Shown here one piece after another: positions 34,476 to 42,594 of a DNA stretch of 42,594 bases. The translations under genes and the position numbers were made by a program. The stretch's first letter is position 1, and each line of letters opens with the position of its first letter. The notes beneath the pieces were generated by a model. The model searched no databases. It worked only from the letters and a program-made list of their open reading frames with translations, and had not been told where the DNA came from. This DNA is from a virus, in IMG/VR virus record IMGVR_UViG_3300003937_000089, positions 1 through 42,594 of that record. One strand, written 5' to 3'.

Positions 34476-34847
34476 TTATGAAACTGAAATAGTTCTTTGT
34501 TTAGTTTTTTTCTTACTCTTAGGGAAATTTATGTAGAGTATCCCATCTTTAACTTTAGCGTCAATCTTCTTTTCATCAATATCGTCAGGTAAAGTATAAG
34601 TTCTTTCAAATGAACCCATATAATCAGTGGAATCCTCAGTTCTACTATAATTGACCTTAAGTAAGTCCTCTTCAACCACGATATTGATATCGTTTTTATT
34701 AAGACCCGGAACAAGAAATTGTAATTCATACTTATTCTCATCCTCATGTCTATGTACATTGACACGACCACTTTGAGTGGTCTCAGTTTTAGAGTCGAAA
34801 AACTCATCAACAAATTTGATCCATGGATCGTTTCTAAATAAAATCAT
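34476..34847 (-). CDS. Small heat-shock protein, Hsp20/alpha-crystallin family
   Basis: This 123-residue holdase chaperone binds unfolding proteins and prevents aggregation. The alpha-crystallin domain runs from ~27 to 115: R-V-N-V-H-R-H-E-D-E-N-K-Y-E-L-Q-F, then V-P-G-L-N-K-N-D-I-N-I-V-V (~46-58) and F-E-R-T-Y-T-L-P-D-D-I-D (~78-89). It ends with K-D-G-I-L-Y-I-N-F-P (~98-107), the family's G-I-L hallmark. The N-terminal arm (M-I-L-F-R-N-D-P-W-I-K-F-V-D-E-F-F) is short, and the C-terminal tail lacks a clear I-x-I/V beyond T-I-S-V. It is divergent from the phage ClpC gene, with a shared regulatory region. Hsp20 genes are common in marine T4-like phages. Confidence 0.92.
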   Translation of the reverse strand: MILFRNDPWIKFVDEFFDSKTETTQSGRVNVHRHEDENKYELQFLVPGLNKNDINIVVEEDLLKVNYSRTEDSTDYMGSFERTYTLPDDIDEKKIDAKVKDGILYINFPKSKKKTKQRTISVS

Positions 34848-35032: not shown

Positions 35033-37048
35033 ATGTCAGTAGATTTTTTCGAAGAGGGAACACAGTCCCAAAGTAAAAGAGGTAAGAAAGGTAGTAAGAC
35101 GCCAGTTTTAGATAATTTTTCACGAGACCTAACACAATTAGCATTAGATGGGGATATCGATCCTATCATTGGTAGAGATAAAGAGGTACATCGTATTGCA
35201 CAAATATTATCTCGTAAAAAGAAAAACAATGTTGTCATTGTTGGTGAAGCGGGAGTTGGTAAATCCGCATTAGTGGAAAAACTTGCACTACTTATAAGTG
35301 CGGGTAACTGTCCTACCAATCTTTTAGATAAAAGGATTATGTCGTTGGATTTAACGTCTTTAGTTGCGGGGACAAAATATAGAGGTCAATTTGAAGAAAG
35401 AATTAAAGTAATTCTAAACGAACTACAAGACGCACCTAATGTGATTATTTTCATTGACGAGATACACACCATGGTTGGTGCGGGTAACGCTTCGGGTTCT
35501 ATGGATGCCGCTAACATACTTAAACCGGCACTTGCAAGAGGTGAGATACAATGTATAGGGGCAACCACTTTCGATGAGTATAAGAAAAATATTGAGAAGG
35601 ACGGTGCTCTTGTAAGAAGATTCCAAAAGATTATATTAGAAGAACCGACAACGGTAGAAACTATCGATATTTTAAAGAATTTAAAAGATTCTTATGAGGA
35701 CTATCATAGAGTCGATTATCAAAAAGACGTAATTGAAACTATTGTGAAGTTATGTAAACGATTTATTACGGACAAACAATTCCCTGATAAGGCTATCGAT
35801 GTTTTGGATGAATTAGGATCACAGAAAAAAATAAATATTAAGATACCAGAATCTATAGAGAAACTGAAAAAAAGTTGTGAATCTATTAGAATTAAAAAAT
35901 TAGAAGTTGTAAAGAATCAGGATTACGAAAAGGCAGCAAACCTTAGAGATCAAGAAAGAAAGATCCTCAAGAAATTAGATAATGAAAAGAAAAAATGGAA
36001 TAAAGAACAACAACTAAATAAGAAACCTATTTCAGTGGACGATGTTTATAATATTATTACCGACATCACAGGGGTACCAATTAATAAATTAGATACTAAG
36101 GAAACCAAATCACTATTATCTTTAGAGAAAACAATATCCAAAAATGTTATTGGACAAGACGATGCCGTTGAGATCATATCAAAATCAATAAGAAGAAATA
36201 GGGTTGGTGTTAAGGGTCATAATAAACCTATTGGTTCTTTCATGTTCTTAGGATCTACTGGTGTGGGTAAAACACACTTAGCAAAAACATTAGCCAATAC
36301 CTTATTTGGAGATCCCGACAAGATTATAAGGGTAGATATGAGTGAATTCATGGAAAAACACAATGTTTCCAAACTAATTGGGTCTCCTCCGGGTTATGTC
36401 GGATTTGAAGAAGGTGGTCAGTTAACCGAGAAAATTAAGAATAATCCATTTTCAGTTGTCTTATTTGACGAAATAGAAAAGGCACATAAAGATGTCTTCA
36501 ATATCCTACTTCAAATATTGGATGAGGGTAGGTTAACAGATTCATTTGGTAGGAAAGTAAATTTTACTAATACTTTGATAATAATGACGTCGAACGTCGG
36601 TGCTAAGAAAGTTGCCGATTTTGGTGGGGGTGTAGGTTTTACATCTGACGGTGATAGGGCTAAAGTAAAAGACTCAATCATTAAAAAATCATTGAAACAA
36701 AAATTTAGTCCTGAATTCTTAAATAGAATCGATGATATTATTGTATTCAATAAACTACAAGATAAGTCACTTAAAAAAATTATCACTATCGAGTTAAATA
36801 AATTATCAAAAAGACTTATCGAGAGTGATTACAAAATAAAATTTGATCGTAGTGTAAGTCAAGAAGTTTTAAATAGAAATTCTGAAGAAGAGTATGGTGC
36901 GAGACCAATAAAACGAATCATACAAAACCTGTGTGAGGATTTTATAAGTGATAAGATTTTAGAAGGTGAGATTACGGAGAATTCCGATTTCATCTTAAAA
37001 ATTAAAGACGGAAACATGGAATTATCAAAAAATATTCCCCTGATTTAA
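35033..37048 (+). CDS. clpC: ClpC-like AAA+ protein unfoldase lacking the N domain
   Basis: A 671-residue, two-ring AAA+ ATPase. D1: Walker A GEAGVGKS (71-78), pore loop K-Y-R-G (115-118), Walker B IIFIDEIH (138-145), Arg finger in A-L-V-R-R-F (192-197). A UVR-like coiled segment (N-Q-D-Y-E-K-A-A-N-L-R-D, 295-306) takes the place of the long ClpB middle domain, as in ClpC. D2: Walker A GSTGVGKT (407-414), pore loop G-Y-V-G (454-457), Walker B VVLFDEIEKAH (475-485). V-G-F (534-536) sits where ClpC/ClpA carry the ClpP-docking loop. The usual ~150-residue N-terminal substrate/adaptor domain is missing, replaced by ~25 basic residues. The sequence around F-L-N-R-I-D-D-I-I-V-F-N looks Bacteroidota-like. 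It probably docks on host ClpP and redirects proteolysis. Confidence 0.93.
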   Translation: MSVDFFEEGTQSQSKRGKKGSKTPVLDNFSRDLTQLALDGDIDPIIGRDKEVHRIAQILSRKKKNNVVIVGEAGVGKSALVEKLALLISAGNCPTNLLDKRIMSLDLTSLVAGTKYRGQFEERIKVILNELQDAPNVIIFIDEIHTMVGAGNASGSMDAANILKPALARGEIQCIGATTFDEYKKNIEKDGALVRRFQKIILEEPTTVETIDILKNLKDSYEDYHRVDYQKDVIETIVKLCKRFITDKQFPDKAIDVLDELGSQKKINIKIPESIEKLKKSCESIRIKKLEVVKNQDYEKAANLRDQERKILKKLDNEKKKWNKEQQLNKKPISVDDVYNIITDITGVPINKLDTKETKSLLSLEKTISKNVIGQDDAVEIISKSIRRNRVGVKGHNKPIGSFMFLGSTGVGKTHLAKTLANTLFGDPDKIIRVDMSEFMEKHNVSKLIGSPPGYVGFEEGGQLTEKIKNNPFSVVLFDEIEKAHKDVFNILLQILDEGRLTDSFGRKVNFTNTLIIMTSNVGAKKVADFGGGVGFTSDGDRAKVKDSIIKKSLKQKFSPEFLNRIDDIIVFNKLQDKSLKKIITIELNKLSKRLIESDYKIKFDRSVSQEVLNRNSEEEYGARPIKRIIQNLCEDFISDKILEGEITENSDFILKIKDGNMELSKNIPLI

Positions 37049-37167: not shown

Positions 37168-37195
37168 CCCCAGCAAACCTTGTTGGGGTTTTTTT
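37168..37195. terminator. Bidirectional terminator between convergent transcripts
   Basis: CCCCAGCAA (37168-37176) / TTGTTGGGG (37180-37188), a 9-bp stem with one G-T pair and loop ACC, followed by seven T on the plus strand. The stop codon of the convergent minus-strand gene (37194-37196) overlaps the T-run. On the minus strand a shorter T-run follows. Confidence 0.85.
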
Positions 37196-37631
37196 ATATC
37201 CCCTTTTCTATTGCCTTCTTAACAGCGGATGAAAATGTTGTCTTATCAAAAGGTATATCATCATTTTGTAAATCTATAAATGTGGACTCTACCGTAGATT
37301 TGGCTCTTCCTTCCACCTCAATCACTTCCCCGTCCATGTAGATCAGTAAAGTAACAATTGTTTTTTTACTCACTTTCGTCCATGGACCAAGTTGGATCCC
37401 TGTTTGAGGGGACTCTATTGATTGTACAATAACATCAATCGGTTTACCATCCATACATAAATTGTATTTATCTGAGATAATGTCTTCCATCATCTGTTTT
37501 ATACCGAATGTAATCCTTCTTTTACTGATTTCTTCCATTTCAATTTCAGTGGTTACTGATTTAATAGAATAACAATCAACCTGTGAAAATAATAGGGTTG
37601 GGAATAATAAGAGTATTAGTAAATTTTTCAT
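37194..37631 (-). CDS. Exported protein of unknown function, last gene of the CsgG-like operon
   Basis: A 145-residue protein with a clear signal peptide (MKNLLILLLFPTLLFS), cut probably just before Gln 17. The mature part has two Cys (20 and 59) that could form a disulfide. It contains an alpha/beta domain: P-I-D-V-I-V-Q-S-I-E-S-P (~64-75), K-K-T-I-V-T-L-L-I-Y-M-D-G-E-V-I-E-V-E-G (~89-108) and a C-terminal helix (TTFSSAVKKAIEKGI). Size, export and position beside a CsgG-like gene recall the periplasmic accessory CsgE of curli systems, but no CsgE signature is visible. The 'strand, E-G-x-A/G, helix' ending also resembles the CsgG/LpoB-type fold. Confidence 0.75.
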   Translation of the reverse strand: MKNLLILLLFPTLLFSQVDCYSIKSVTTEIEMEEISKRRITFGIKQMMEDIISDKYNLCMDGKPIDVIVQSIESPQTGIQLGPWTKVSKKTIVTLLIYMDGEVIEVEGRAKSTVESTFIDLQNDDIPFDKTTFSSAVKKAIEKGI

Positions 37632-37633
37632 AA

Positions 37634-38983
37634 TTAAAATCTGATTTTACCACCAGTCAGAACTTGATAGTTTAATGCATTACCTCCCGATTGCCAAACT
37701 CCCGTAAAACTGATGTTATATTTAAATGTTTTTGTGATTTGAATATCCCAAGAACTAAATGGTACTATTAATAATCCAGGGTCCCACCACTGACCCTCAT
37801 AATACTGTGTGAATGGAGAATACACCCCCAATATTAGAGCCGATGTTGTGATCTTCGGAGTTACTCTAAAGTTTCTATGAATACCACTGACTGCGGATAG
37901 ATTTTGTAATTCTCTTTTACCTAATTTACCTATTGTAAAATTAGCACCCACCATACCCGTAAATTTCTTTTTACCAAACTTAAATGATTCTAAAACAGTA
38001 GTTGTATTTAAATGGTTTTGATCAAAGTTGGTCATCGTGGTGTTTGCACCCACTAAATTAAATGTCCTATTTGGGTTTATCCATGATTTGTAGAAAGTTA
38101 AACTAAAATCATTAGTTACGGTTGTGTATGTAAATAACGCACCTTGGACTCTACTCTTTTTTGTATTCGCACTTGTAATAGATCCTACCACTTTTATTTG
38201 TCGACCATTCGAATTGTCTTGGTTATCAATAACCACGATATCTCCTGATGCTATTAGTGAACCTCTATTTTTATTGTCTGACTCTCCACCATCTATTGCA
38301 TTAGAAACTGAATTTGCCAAAGACATGGTTAACCCACCTTCTTTTGATTCCTCTTCAGTCGCAGTTTCACTACCTTCTGTCGATGTACCGTTTTCGTTAG
38401 TGTTACCTTGACTACCGTTAGTTTCATTAGAACCTGATTCGTTAGACTGTTCAGAACTATTGTTAGATTCACCCCTATTCTCGCTTTTGTTATTGGATCC
38501 TACGGATTGTTCTTTAGAATTTTCGGTTTTAGTATTATTCTTCCCCTTCTTTCTTTTCTTCTTCTTTTTTGATGCGTTATCGATGGCCTCCGCCACGGGG
38601 ACACCTGATGATGATAGTGCCTGTGGTAACATGTCCCCACCCAAAACACTCATTATATTTGTAATTACTGTGATAGTATTTTGAACTATCACTGCATTTG
38701 TATTATTAGTAACTATTTGGGATATTTCTTGACATGGGTTTGAAGAGTTAGATTGAGTAACTATGTTCATCCACGAATCAAAAGTACCATTAGTAAAATC
38801 GAGCTGTGTGAATGTCTGTACGTTACCAAAATAATTCAGAACAATTTCATCACTTGAACCCATCTGAATTGTTTGTTGATTTAAAGTACAGGGATCTGTA
38901 AACGTGTAGGACCACTGACCGTAACCAACCAATGGTAATAAAAATAATATTACCGCAATTATTTTATTCTTCAAATATCCCAC
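37634..38983 (-). CDS. Putative outer-membrane beta-barrel protein
   Basis: A 449-residue protein with signal peptide (NKIIAVILFLLPLVGYG, cut before Gln 23). Residues ~23-125 form an N-terminal domain with three Cys. Residues ~137-215 are a low-complexity linker, first Lys-rich (KKKKKRKKGK) and then Ser/Asn/Glu/Gly-rich. Residues ~240-449 show alternating-hydrophobic strands with aromatic girdles and end G-G-K-I-R-F, i.e. with C-terminal Phe, the usual last-strand signal for outer-membrane insertion. I infer a ~10-14 stranded barrel. It overlaps the CsgG-like gene by 20 bases, so they are probably produced together. It may anchor or gate the export system; I know no named homologue. Confidence 0.72.
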   Translation of the reverse strand: MGYLKNKIIAVILFLLPLVGYGQWSYTFTDPCTLNQQTIQMGSSDEIVLNYFGNVQTFTQLDFTNGTFDSWMNIVTQSNSSNPCQEISQIVTNNTNAVIVQNTITVITNIMSVLGGDMLPQALSSSGVPVAEAIDNASKKKKKRKKGKNNTKTENSKEQSVGSNNKSENRGESNNSSEQSNESGSNETNGSQGNTNENGTSTEGSETATEEESKEGGLTMSLANSVSNAIDGGESDNKNRGSLIASGDIVVIDNQDNSNGRQIKVVGSITSANTKKSRVQGALFTYTTVTNDFSLTFYKSWINPNRTFNLVGANTTMTNFDQNHLNTTTVLESFKFGKKKFTGMVGANFTIGKLGKRELQNLSAVSGIHRNFRVTPKITTSALILGVYSPFTQYYEGQWWDPGLLIVPFSSWDIQITKTFKYNISFTGVWQSGGNALNYQVLTGGKIRF

Positions 38984-39668
38984 GTTTAATCATTCTTTTT
39001 ACAATACGAGCCGTTCCAGATTCCAACGCCTTTTTAGTTGCAATACCAATTGTTGATTTATTGAACTTTACATCATTAACGGAACCAATTTTAGTTCTTT
39101 TTATTGTGACCGCCTCACCACTTCCACTTCCTGTAAAAATGGTACCGTTCTCAGCATTAACAAATCTTACCTGCATACCAATAATAGTTTTTAGTACGGT
39201 CTTCACCCCGTCAATTGTAACTTCCTCTTCTTCAGATACCGAATAATCATATATTTCGACATAAACAAAATACTCCGCTAAAACAACATTACCCACAACC
39301 TTAATATCGTTAGATGATATTCCTTTTGCAGCTGCCTTATGTTGTTTAACCATTCTTTGTTTAATTTCTTCTTTATCTTCCGTAAATAAAAATCTATCAG
39401 TCCATTCCAAATAAGATAGAGTTATGTTACTAACACCTAATCCCACCCTATTTTCTCTTAATTCGGGGTAAAATTCATATAACTCCGGTGTAAAACCAAT
39501 ATTTAAAACTTGGATTGGTAATTGGTAATCTAACATATAATCAGATACCTCATCTATATCAATATCCTGTTCAAACTTACCTTTATAATTTTCGGTCTCT
39601 GTTTTACCTAATTGAGCCTTAACTGTAAAACTTAATAGTAACGATATAATTAAAAATATTCTTACCAT
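38964..39668 (-). CDS. CsgG-like secretion-channel protein
   Basis: A 234-residue exported protein (signal peptide VRIFLIISLLLSFTVKA, cut before Gln 19). The mature region fits the CsgG family: R-V-G-L-G-V-S-N-I-T-L-S-Y-L (~73-86, the first strand and helix of the periplasmic fold), D-I-K-V-V-G-N-V-V-L-A-E-Y-F-V-Y (~121-136), M-Q-V-R-F-V-N-A-E-N-G-T-I-F-T-G-S-G-S-G-E (~164-184) and a C-terminal helix. In CsgG nonamers the transmembrane barrel comes from two hairpins. E. coli CsgG is a lipoprotein; here no lipobox Cys follows the signal peptide. CsgG-like genes have been reported in other marine phages. A role as secretion pore for the neighbouring exported proteins is inferred. Confidence 0.75.
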   Translation of the reverse strand: MVRIFLIISLLLSFTVKAQLGKTETENYKGKFEQDIDIDEVSDYMLDYQLPIQVLNIGFTPELYEFYPELRENRVGLGVSNITLSYLEWTDRFLFTEDKEEIKQRMVKQHKAAAKGISSNDIKVVGNVVLAEYFVYVEIYDYSVSEEEEVTIDGVKTVLKTIIGMQVRFVNAENGTIFTGSGSGEAVTIKRTKIGSVNDVKFNKSTIGIATKKALESGTARIVKRMIKRGIFEE

Positions 39669-39919
39669 GTTATGTCTTCTTCTTTTTTCTCTTTCTTAGG
39701 AGGTATAACAATTGTTTTAGTTATTACCAAAGTATCCTTTATACTACTTGGGGTATTTATTTTTTGTTCCATGACAGGTAAATTTACCTTTTCTTCTTTA
39801 GGTTCAAATACAGATTGCATGTTAGCAATTAATAGTCCGAAACCCGCCGTTATAACTAAACCAATACCTGTTACTATTTGGTTTTTAATTTCTGAAAAAA
39901 ATCCTTTATTTTTACTCAT
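39662..39919 (-). CDS. Small single-pass membrane protein
   Basis: An 85-residue protein with one predicted membrane helix (IVTGIGLVITAGFGLLIANM, ~15-34) after a short Lys-containing N-terminus. A ~50-residue tail follows, ending Lys/Glu-rich (PPKKEKKEEDITW). Orientation by the positive-inside rule would place the N-terminus in the cytoplasm and the tail in the periplasm. It overlaps the CsgG-like gene by 7 bases and the T9SS-cargo gene by 4. The size and topology are also those of some phage holins or spanin-like proteins, but no lysis gene is nearby. An inner-membrane anchor for the export operon is the simpler reading. Confidence 0.7.
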   Translation of the reverse strand: MSKNKGFFSEIKNQIVTGIGLVITAGFGLLIANMQSVFEPKEEKVNLPVMEQKINTPSSIKDTLVITKTIVIPPKKEKKEEDITW

Positions 39920-40653
39920 TGTTTTATTGTTTTAAATGTTTTTACAAATTGTCCGTTAGTAATATGTAAGAGATAAACACCTTGTGGTAATGAAGATAAG
40001 TCCATTTGAAATTGTACCCATCCCGCGAAAAAAGACTTCCTCTCTTTTAAAAATTCTAATCCCCCATAGTTTAATACTCTAATAATATAATCTCCATTAT
40101 CTGGTACTGTCAGGTCGAACGTAATGGGACCTTTAGTTGGGACTGGATAAACAATCCCATAAATACCGTCAGTAGGTCTAGTATCGAAAGGCATTGATCG
40201 TTTATTAACATACCCATCCGTATTTTCAACTTCAATATCCCAACCTAATTCGGTACCCGCAGTTTTCCTACCTATTGTAATTGGAATTTCTGTCCAATTT
40301 TGATCAGTAACTTTAAATCTTACCGTAAATAATTCTGTTGTATTGATTATGGTAAAATTACCGAAGGAGGGATCATAACCTCCCCATCTAACAGTTTCGC
40401 CTTCCCAGTCCATTGTATAGGTTAACCACTCCTGTGCCTTGGGTGTCACCGTAATTGACACAAACTCTAAATAGTTTGGATCGTAATTCAATGCAAATTC
40501 AAGACTACCGACAATCTCACCCTCAGTTTCAATTTCTATGGGTAGATTAATGTAATCACTTACAGGTACTTCAATCTCAGGTACATTAAATACGACCTGA
40601 GATTGTGCACTTGTTGTGAATATTAATACTAATGTCAGTAATAATAATCTCAT
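39916..40653 (-). CDS. Secreted protein with cohesin-like domain and type IX secretion sorting domain
   Basis: A 245-residue exported protein in three parts. Signal peptide 1-18 (cut before Gln 19). Residues ~20-150 form a beta-sandwich resembling cohesin domains: V-P-V-S-D-Y-I-N-L-P-I-E-I then G-S-L-E-F-A-L-N-Y-D-P-N-Y-L-E-F-V-S-I (~49-67). Residues ~164-245 form a C-terminal domain with the hallmarks of T9SS type A sorting domains: Y-P-V-P-T-K-G-P-I-T-F (169-179), a strand V-L-N-Y-G-G, D-L-S-S-L-P-Q-G-V-Y-L-L-H-I (218-231) and T-F-K-T-I-K-Q at the end. Bacteroidota secrete and surface-attach proteins through such domains. For a phage gene this implies use of the host T9SS. Confidence 0.82.
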   Translation of the reverse strand: MRLLLLTLVLIFTTSAQSQVVFNVPEIEVPVSDYINLPIEIETEGEIVGSLEFALNYDPNYLEFVSITVTPKAQEWLTYTMDWEGETVRWGGYDPSFGNFTIINTTELFTVRFKVTDQNWTEIPITIGRKTAGTELGWDIEVENTDGYVNKRSMPFDTRPTDGIYGIVYPVPTKGPITFDLTVPDNGDYIIRVLNYGGLEFLKERKSFFAGWVQFQMDLSSLPQGVYLLHITNGQFVKTFKTIKQ

Positions 40654-40654
40654 A

Positions 40655-41749
40655 TTAATTTAAACCTGTTCCATTGGCATCTCCTAATATTAATAAGTAG
40701 AAGTTACCCGTAGTTGTGTTATTAATTAATGGAGATAAAAACTCCGTTAGACCCGGTATAGAACTAGACTGATCTGATGTTGCACTACTAATAGTAGTAT
40801 ACTGTGCTTCAGTAAAGAACAATACATCTGGATTAGAAGAATAACTTGAGTTACCTTGTGCTAATCTAGAGAATACCATATATGAATCCGATGCGGTAAT
40901 TCCATTATTTTGATTTGTATTCGCAGTATAGAACTGAATTCCTGATGGTGATTGTACCCCCGCAGCAATTTGTGCGATCATATTAGCATCTGCAGTTGAT
41001 AGTGCGGTACTCGCATCTAAACCACTTGCAATCTTGAGTCTAATTTGCCAATAATCCTGATCTAAATTTTCTGAGAACACCGACTCCCCATTCGAGTTGG
41101 TTGTTACTGTGGTAACATCTGTCCAAGACGAACCATCTGACGATTTTTGTAATATTACATCAATAGAGTCTGCTGGATTTGTCCCACTATTTAGAATTGT
41201 GGCGGTATAATCAAATGCCGGTTCTATAAAATTACCACCATTATCTTGTGTACCCAATACCCCATCAGTCCCATCAGACTTTACATAATAAGCGGTAAGG
41301 TCGGTAGTAAAATCTACGTCCGCAACTGCCGAGTTTGTATAGTTAGAAAGAAAAGGGGCATTTACTGTAAACATGTTACCCGCAATCATATCGAAAGTGG
41401 TAGATGATCCTGAATAAACCCATACCACTTTTATAACTCCACTTGTTGAATCGACATCATAAGACAAATACCCGGCAGGGCCAGATGTATTGTTATATGT
41501 TAAAGTGGGTTCATCAAATACCGTGTTATCATAATTAAATGAAAACTGAATACCTTTAACATCATTACCCGACGTATTATCGTAATAAATGTCAAATGTT
41601 GTGTTTGAGGTTGATGAGGTGGATTCTAAAGTGTAAGTTGAATCAAAGATAATATAAGGTTTAGTTGCGTCAGGTGAAGTCGTCTGCCCGAAGACAGTCA
41701 TCGTACCAATTAGCAAAGATAGTGTTAGAAAAATGTTTTTAAGTTTCAT
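40655..41749 (-). CDS. Secreted cohesin-like plus dockerin-like protein
   Basis: A 364-residue exported protein (signal peptide KLKNIFLTLSLLIGTMTVFG, cut before Gln 22). Residues ~35-150 resemble a cohesin beta-sandwich: Y-D-N-T-S-G-N-D-V-K-G-I-Q-F-S-F-N-Y-D (~56-74). Residues ~175-240 are a second beta domain. Residues ~248-300 contain two dockerin/F-hand-like halves: A-L-S-T-A-D-A-N-M-I-A-Q-I-A-A-G (249-264) and N-Q-N-N-G-I-T-A-S-D-S-Y-M-V-F-S-R-L-A (278-297), the latter with the Asx-rich calcium loop. The C-terminus F-Y-L-L-I-L-G-D recurs in the next gene upstream. It lies one base from the T9SS-cargo gene, which carries the other cohesin-like domain. Confidence 0.8.
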   Translation of the reverse strand: MKLKNIFLTLSLLIGTMTVFGQTTSPDATKPYIIFDSTYTLESTSSTSNTTFDIYYDNTSGNDVKGIQFSFNYDNTVFDEPTLTYNNTSGPAGYLSYDVDSTSGVIKVVWVYSGSSTTFDMIAGNMFTVNAPFLSNYTNSAVADVDFTTDLTAYYVKSDGTDGVLGTQDNGGNFIEPAFDYTATILNSGTNPADSIDVILQKSSDGSSWTDVTTVTTNSNGESVFSENLDQDYWQIRLKIASGLDASTALSTADANMIAQIAAGVQSPSGIQFYTANTNQNNGITASDSYMVFSRLAQGNSSYSSNPDVLFFTEAQYTTISSATSDQSSSIPGLTEFLSPLINNTTTGNFYLLILGDANGTGLN

Positions 41750-41766
41750 CGTTTTTTTTTACTTTT

Positions 41767-42594
41767 TTAATTTTTATGTCCTACTCTTAATAAATAGAAT
41801 GTTGTCTGATTTCCATTGGCTAAATCAAATAGAGACCATGATCCGTAACCAACGTATATCGTTTTATCGTCTGAATCCGCAGCAACTGCCGGCCAAATGG
41901 TCGGGTTTTGCCAAGAATTTGTGTTCCATATTTCTTGTCCCCCACCAGGGTAACTAGAAATGTTACCGTGTCTTCTCTGGTGCATTAGATAGATATCAGA
42001 GACAGAAAACGAACCTGTATTATTCACATCCATTCTCCAATAATCTTTTGAACTGAATGTGTCTGATAATAATCTATCTTGAAACCAATTTATATCTGTG
42101 GTTATAAGTGTTCCTAATGACGGATTAATATCTATTGTAAAATCGTAATCGTTGTAATTTAATGTGGTATTAAAAGAATAATACCCATTTGAATCTGTTG
42201 TTGTTGTTGCTTGAGTCGTATATGAAAAACCGACTTGATTTTTATTCTGTGTCTTTAGATAAACTGTTTGTCCTCCAATACCTTGTTCTTCTCCCCCTTT
42301 AATATAACCACTTGCCGTGATTGGTACAGCGTTAGGGTCGGTAGCAGACCATTCTGCAAATGGATGACTAGGACTGAGTTGATTAAATTGACCTGTATTG
42401 TAGTTAGCGGGTATTTCATATTGGAAATTTGCAGCACCTATACCACCAAAATTCTGTATTCTATATTCAAATTCATACCATACAGTTTTATCTAGGGTTG
42501 CCGTACCATAAGCCCATACATTCCAACCATAATGTTTAGTAACTATATCATTAGTCTTACCAATACCTTTAATCATAAACTCATGTGAGTCATC
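41767..42594 (-). CDS. Extracellular dockerin-like multidomain protein (partial, N-terminus beyond right edge)
   Basis: The frame is open to the right edge (D-D-S-H-E-F precede Met 42576), so the gene starts outside the window; at least 275 residues are present. Contents in order: a beta domain with Y-E-F-E-Y-R-I-Q-N-F-G; a carboxypeptidase-regulatory-like domain (G-Y-I-K-G-G-E-E-Q-G-I-G-G-Q-T-V-Y-L ... D-S-N-G-Y-Y-S-F); and a dockerin-like pair (I-T-T-D-I-N-W-F-Q-D-R-L and D-V-N-N-T-G-S-F-S-V-S-D-I-Y-L-M-H-Q). The C-terminus F-Y-L-L-R-V-G-H matches that of the next gene. No T9SS sorting domain is seen. It is probably an extracellular matrix-type or adhesive protein, exported like its operon partners. 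Confidence 0.8.
   Translation of the reverse strand, partial: DDSHEFMIKGIGKTNDIVTKHYGWNVWAYGTATLDKTVWYEFEYRIQNFGGIGAANFQYEIPANYNTGQFNQLSPSHPFAEWSATDPNAVPITASGYIKGGEEQGIGGQTVYLKTQNKNQVGFSYTTQATTTTDSNGYYSFNTTLNYNDYDFTIDINPSLGTLITTDINWFQDRLLSDTFSSKDYWRMDVNNTGSFSVSDIYLMHQRRHGNISSYPGGGQEIWNTNSWQNPTIWPAVAADSDDKTIYVGYGSWSLFDLANGNQTTFYLLRVGHKN

Follow-up and report, generated by a model that had tools for sequence, protein, structure and literature searches.

We find that a tailed phage encodes cohesins and dockerin-like modules on neighboring proteins of a seven-gene cluster (p1-p7), and our confidence is evenly balanced on the reading that these proteins form a closed chain of anchor, adaptor, and tip, held together by cohesin-dockerin-like contacts on the outer face of the infected cell and perhaps adhesive. 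This reading builds on the computed domains of p3, p2, and p5, on homology among the modules, and on synteny, a gene fusion, and the swapping of tips among related phages. The window (the whole stretch of DNA analyzed) is a 42.6-kb IMG/VR record with T4-type major head protein, portal, and terminase families present. Among the phage records searched, its nearest named relative is Flavobacterium phage immuto, and carriers of the cassette are viruses of Bacteroidota-type bacteria.

The cluster comprises the last genes of the window, on the minus strand, as do all features of p1-p7 given below. It is headed by p1, p2, and p3 and is tightly packed, with neighbors overlapping or spaced within ~20 bases. 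The putative tip protein p1 (41767-42594) has a variable N-terminal recognition domain, an SdrD_B/CarboxypepD-like domain, and a dockerin-like module; its 5' end is cut by the contig end, and full-length relatives have 332 to 770 amino acids. The putative adaptor p2 (40655-41749) combines a signal peptide, a cohesin, a transthyretin-like domain, and a dockerin-like module, whereas the putative anchor p3 (39916-40653) combines a signal peptide, a cohesin, and a T9SS type A sorting domain. Signal-peptide-like starts, judged by eye, are present on p2, p3, p5, p6, p7, and full-length p1 relatives, and together with the T9SS tail of p3 they lead us to expect the products outside the cytoplasm. A preliminary description had singled out p1, p2, and p3, with the same gene boundaries and strand. 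What it noticed is real, and the arrangement is more extensive than described; the T9SS tail of p3 and the remainder of the cluster (37194-39919) were missed.

Both p2 and p3 carry a cohesin. That of p3 (40270-40590) matches the Pfam Cohesin family (PF00963) above the curated cut-off (E = 3.3e-9, 37.5 bits versus 24.1). The p3 tail is a T9SS C-terminal sorting domain (39919-40152, YPVPT...KTFKTIKQ), which scores above the cut-offs of both Por_Secre_tail (PF18962; E = 1.6e-7, 32 bits versus 27) and TIGR04183 (E = 8.4e-7, 28.9 bits versus 23), and its profile matches solved T9SS tails. From this sequence, p3 is predicted to be T9SS type A cargo that would be placed on the cell surface. The window p2 itself has no match to the Pfam cohesin, which is found in 4 of 21 p2 relatives at weak scores (best E = 0.0022). 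The AF2 model of p2 has a mean pLDDT of 51, with a usable N-terminal domain (residues 26-172, 41234-41674) mostly at 55 to 79. Compared with known structures, the best 39 VIA-align rows for this model are all cohesins (Z = 13.1 over 136 residues to CipA, 1aoh), and the first non-cohesin row reaches only Z = 8.5; Foldseek returned 2vo8 (E = 2.0e-4, TMt 0.70). The N-terminal domain of p2 is thus a cohesin by modeled fold, without a curated sequence score. Between the cohesins of p2 and p3, hhalign finds only a weak likeness (27.5%), and nsp5 matches of p2 were judged to be due to chance. The cohesin-like sandwiches noted earlier on two genes are therefore borne out, for p3 by curated Pfam score and for p2 by AF2 fold.

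Over their C-terminal ~120 residues, p1 and p2 share homology (hhalign, 96.7%). Furthermore, p2 and p3 are a single gene of ~630 to 670 codons in a second phage clade, and the module of this fused homologue is matched by the modules of p2 (residues 243-364, 40658-41023) at 99.9% and p1 (41770-42138) at 99.2%. Pfam Dockerin_1 (PF00404) has no match in the window p1 or p2; it matches 13 of 17 fused homologues (best E = 7.8e-5; one score, 19.1, lies below the cut-off of 22.9) and 3 of 22 p1 relatives (best E = 0.0011). The solved structure nearest to the profile of the fused homologues comes from the adaptor scaffoldin ScaB, whose dockerin (4uyp_B) is matched at E = 4.7e-4. The AF2 model does not resolve the dockerin part of p2, where pLDDT is under 40. 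The middle protein p2 carries both a cohesin and a dockerin-like module, as the preliminary description had it, like an adaptor scaffoldin.

Only the second F-hand loop of these modules is canonical, where a type I dockerin has two calcium-binding loops. In p1, this loop is DVNNTGSFSVSD (41995-42030), with D1, N3, and D12 invariant in 19 relatives; in p2, it is NTNQNNGITASD (40886-40921), with N1, N3, and D12 invariant in 21 relatives. The corresponding patterns are DVNN[DT]G.....D for p1, DVNGDNNITISD for the fused form, and N.NQ..GIT..D for p2. The first loop is degenerate in p1, p2, and the fused form, keeping only the Asp at position 12, which is why we term the p1 and p2 modules dockerin-like; their earlier designation as F-hand-like dockerin halves is apt. 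All 21 p2 relatives have Asn in place of Asp at position 1 of the canonical loop, and 17 have Ala at position 5. Judging from the loops, p1 and the fused form probably bind calcium, but for p2 this is doubtful. The calcium dependence previously suggested for the assembly is weakened by Asn1 and Ala5 in p2 and by the degenerate first loops, and it has more plausibility in p1 and in the fused homologues than in p2.

The modules occur together with great regularity. Among p5 loci flanked by 5 kb or more in both directions, p2 and p3 were both present in 46 of 46 (28 fused in one gene and 18 adjacent), as were p6 and p7, with p1 in 45; note that many contigs are near-identical and each was counted. 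Likewise, p5, p6, p7, and p1 were found, in two gene orders, in all 48 fused-gene loci with 7 kb downstream (near-identical contigs each counted). The pairing that the preliminary description proposed to look for in related phages is hence a constant of well-flanked p5 loci. A total of 315 relatives of the fused protein were matched in IMG/VR. Each cassette has two cohesins and two dockerin modules. Fifteen large phage contigs (126 to 309 kb) have two dockerin modules each and no other client, or three where p1 is duplicated (one contig). We infer that the p2-p3 fusion and the balance of two cohesins with two dockerin modules are what a p3-p2-p1 chain would need. The earlier idea of a surface scaffold is favored by co-occurrence, fusion, the matched module set, and the p3 T9SS tail, and as an interpretation it is partly supported; the structure may be a simple three-link chain rather than the suggested polymer. 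Bacterial genome contigs scanned with two patterns gave a single match, a phage-like contig (L053, JAAEPJ010000011.1) in a MAG whose phylum is represented by three genomes, and this may be binning contamination. Exported genes resembling DNA/RNA non-specific endonucleases adjoin the cassette in L097 (11226-11810), L099 (10565-11176), and immuto (gp012, annotated NUC1).

The tip of p1 is the exchangeable part of the cassette. An SdrD_B-like domain (CnaB/transthyretin type; 42097-42294) scores below the curated Pfam cut-off in the window p1 (E = 7.2e-5) and is present in 17 of 19 p1 relatives at E <= 0.1. On a common C-terminal connector, the N-terminal domains swap between C-type lectin, ConA-like, GEVED, PA14, and Ig. 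The p1 proteins of L014 and L018, for example, share 86% in the C-terminal 150 amino acids and 34% in the N-terminal part, and L024 and L026 have p2 proteins that are 94% identical, yet their p1 tips differ. The tip in the window's own group is PA14-like by a weak match (E = 0.054).

The same cassette is present in an isolate, as gp013-gp019 of immuto (NC_055915), with identities of 54% for p2, ~51% for p3, and 59.5% for p5. In its annotation, only gp013 (lectin) and gp015 ("cohesin domain-containing") have domain names, and no system is described. Searching immuto with the module profiles gave the modules of p1, p2, and p3 and no others.

The remaining four genes may be helpers. In structural searches with the AF2 model of p5 (38964-39668; pLDDT 71.5), the best 17 Foldseek rows are CsgG (E = 2.8e-7; Z = 11.7), followed by LptE- and PelC-like folds (10.4 to 8). 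Pfam CsgG (PF03783) has no match in the window p5 and matches 5 of 18 relatives (best E = 8.5e-5). Profile-profile comparison of p5 with 12 CsgG references was not significant, so its identification as CsgG by sequence profile was rejected and only the fold claim is kept; by its model, p5 is a CsgG-fold protein, remotely CsgG-like. The p5 signal peptide has no lipobox or lipid-anchor cysteine in the window, which some relatives do have. Given the missing cysteine and the nonsignificant profile alignment, a p5 pore is not established. The exported protein p7 (37194-37631) is related to p5 (hhalign, 95.1%, E = 3.5e-8), and its ribosomal protein S1 matches were judged to be due to chance. The exported protein p6 (37634-38983) has a Ser/Asn/Gly-rich middle and is conserved across loci, with no match in Pfam and other family searches. 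Three further assignments were discarded: neither p7 as CsgE nor p6 as CsgF had an hhalign match, and p6 as an outer-membrane barrel has a mixed final residue (F 25, L 15, Q 8) and a strand pattern not above shuffles (68/500).

The small protein p4 (39662-39919) has one apparent membrane helix. Its family (also L052, 13426-13737; L085, 7642-7980) has a long, polar, Pro/Ala/Asn-rich tail ending in a conserved C-terminal Trp motif, [E/K/H/D]-[E/I/D]-[S/T/P]-W, and could bridge the inner and outer membranes. Small membrane ORFs that look spanin-like or holin-like by eye lie between p3 and p5 in L028 (10111-10380), L074 (5437-5703), L090 (7512-7871), and L092 (3376-3729). An extra exported gene of ~265 codons, p6-like in its C-terminal style, lies between p6 and p7 in L121 (10206-11015) and L082 (3741-4535).

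We propose the following chain. The host T9SS would export p3 and, judging from its tail, fix it to the surface. The p3 cohesin would hold the dockerin-like module of p2, and the p2 cohesin would in turn hold that of p1, which would present a tip that is exchangeable and binds sugars or surfaces (C-type lectin, ConA-like, PA14, or GEVED). More speculatively, self-joining of p2 might lengthen the chain. The CsgG-fold protein p5 and its relative p7, with p4 and p6, may help to export or anchor it. The weakest step is the purpose, which might be that the infected cell sticks to neighbors or glycans and thereby brings its progeny into contact with new hosts. Against the chain, p1 and p2 have no T9SS tail that would take them across the outer membrane. 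The weak likeness of the two cohesins, the absence of a curated score for the p2 cohesin, the low-pLDDT dockerin part of p2, the degenerate first F-hand loops, and, for p5, the missing lipobox and nonsignificant CsgG comparison also count against it. A fuller version, in which the phage encodes a self-assembling cohesin-dockerin fibre, exported by the T9SS with CsgG-fold helpers and tipped with lectin or PA14 domains, with which infected cells catch their neighbors before lysis, is tentative and to our minds rather unlikely. The same reservation extends to a further part of that version, namely that such a fibre is widespread and is the Bacteroidota equivalent of what curli cassettes are in marine phages.

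Other explanations cover parts of this evidence. The scaffold could be a surface coat for superinfection exclusion that covers or blocks receptors of the infected cell and so keeps competing phages from adsorbing, with its variable tip bound to glycans of the host itself. The surface display implied by the p3 T9SS tail, the glycan-binding and variable p1 tips, and a glycosyltransferase block in immuto would all suit such a coat; however, a single lipoprotein would be a simpler route to the same job, and we think it unlikely. A second possibility, which strikes us as distinctly improbable, is an envelope or lysis module, in which CsgG-fold proteins combine with small membrane proteins into a pore or a bridge between the inner and outer membranes, and the cohesin-dockerin part is accessory. 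The p5 fold, the spanin-like or holin-like ORFs that some relatives have between p3 and p5, and an endolysin-like ORF directly upstream in L103 are in keeping with it, and there is precedent in the proposal for Melnitz CsgG, the Melnitz curli genes having been the subject of a pinholin hypothesis (PMC9004378). However, the holin and endolysin genes of immuto are separate (at 22 and 44 kb), and the T9SS tail, lectin tips, and cohesins of every cassette would go unexplained.

It is very unlikely, in our judgment, that p1-p3 are virion-associated adhesive fibres, serving either as decoration of the particles or as tethers for released ones. Lectin and PA14 tips do resemble adhesion domains, and p1 has a weak match to a tail fibre (PHROG 2636, E = 0.026), but the signal peptides of p2, p3, and full-length p1 relatives and the p3 T9SS tail indicate export rather than virion assembly in the cytoplasm, and the immuto cassette (10.5 to 16.4 kb, amid replication and nucleotide genes) is far from the structural genes (~80 to 160 kb). 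Display on the infected-cell surface is favored over virion decoration or lysis because of these export signals, the T9SS tail, the position of the immuto genes, and the presence of holin and endolysin elsewhere. The modules might instead be generic beta-sandwiches and EF-hand-like repeats of secreted Bacteroidota proteins that do not bind each other, as the degenerate first F-hand, the missing Asp at position 1 of the p2 loop, and the lack of a curated cohesin or dockerin score for p2 would allow. The matched pairs of cohesins and dockerin modules, their strict co-occurrence, the p2-p3 fusion, and cohesin structural rows well above other folds argue against this, and we give it little credence.

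The proposed chain has a parallel in cellulosome scaffoldins such as ScaB of Acetivibrio cellulolyticus, which likewise have an anchoring cohesin, an adaptor with cohesin and dockerin, and a dockerin-tagged client. It differs in being phage-borne, in having one cohesin per protein (no arrays) and two dockerin genes per phage, and in its degenerate first F-hand and T9SS tail as anchor. Cellulosomes are marked by dockerin-tagged plant-wall enzymes, and a Pfam scan found no enzyme domains on p1 or p2 relatives. The cassette also resembles the curli (type VIII) cassettes known from pelagimyophages and from Melnitz, which are likewise phage-borne, exported clusters in which a CsgG-fold protein is encoded close to genes for replication (PMC7029224, PMC9004378). 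Here, in contrast, the connectors are cohesin-dockerin-like, export would be by T9SS, and p5 is only remotely CsgG-like; curlin repeats, CsgE, and CsgF have no Pfam match in p1-p7. Phage cargo with T9SS tails is known from Cryophage, where it includes a PA14 protein (PMC7468147), and from BACON phages (PMC6949934), and the variable cargo is a shared feature. Cohesins are unmentioned in both reports, whereas in the present case the protein with the tail is the anchor in a cassette of several proteins. We found no natural phage cohesin-dockerin system in the literature, mostly outside subscription journals. The parts are thus known; the combination and the phage carrier appear to be new.

If true, this would be, as far as we could find, the first described virus-borne assembly of cohesin-dockerin type, and because the cassette group includes a cultured phage and its host, it lends itself to immediate testing. 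It would also be relevant to the presence of surface-fibre export genes in marine phages, for which the reason is an open question, since curlin repeats and cohesin-dockerin modules, which are unrelated connectors, both adjoin CsgG-fold proteins with PA14-type tips. The curli genes of pelagimyophages have been given a "sibling capture" hypothesis, and CsgA and CsgB were described as missing from these phages (PMC7029224). In addition, protein engineering could gain new orthogonal pairs of connectors from the cassettes.

We also made two minor observations. In pelagiphage HTVC008M, gp018 (L132, 10638-11963) has PA14 and curlin repeats, a polymerizing module, in one protein, both above the Pfam cut-offs, and it adjoins a FecR-domain protein and CsgG/CsgF, which parallels the design proposed here. 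In the window, ClpB-like AAA+ and small-heat-shock-like genes, recognized by eye from motifs, adjoin the cassette (35033-37048 and 34476-34847), and GroEL/GroES are found elsewhere in immuto.
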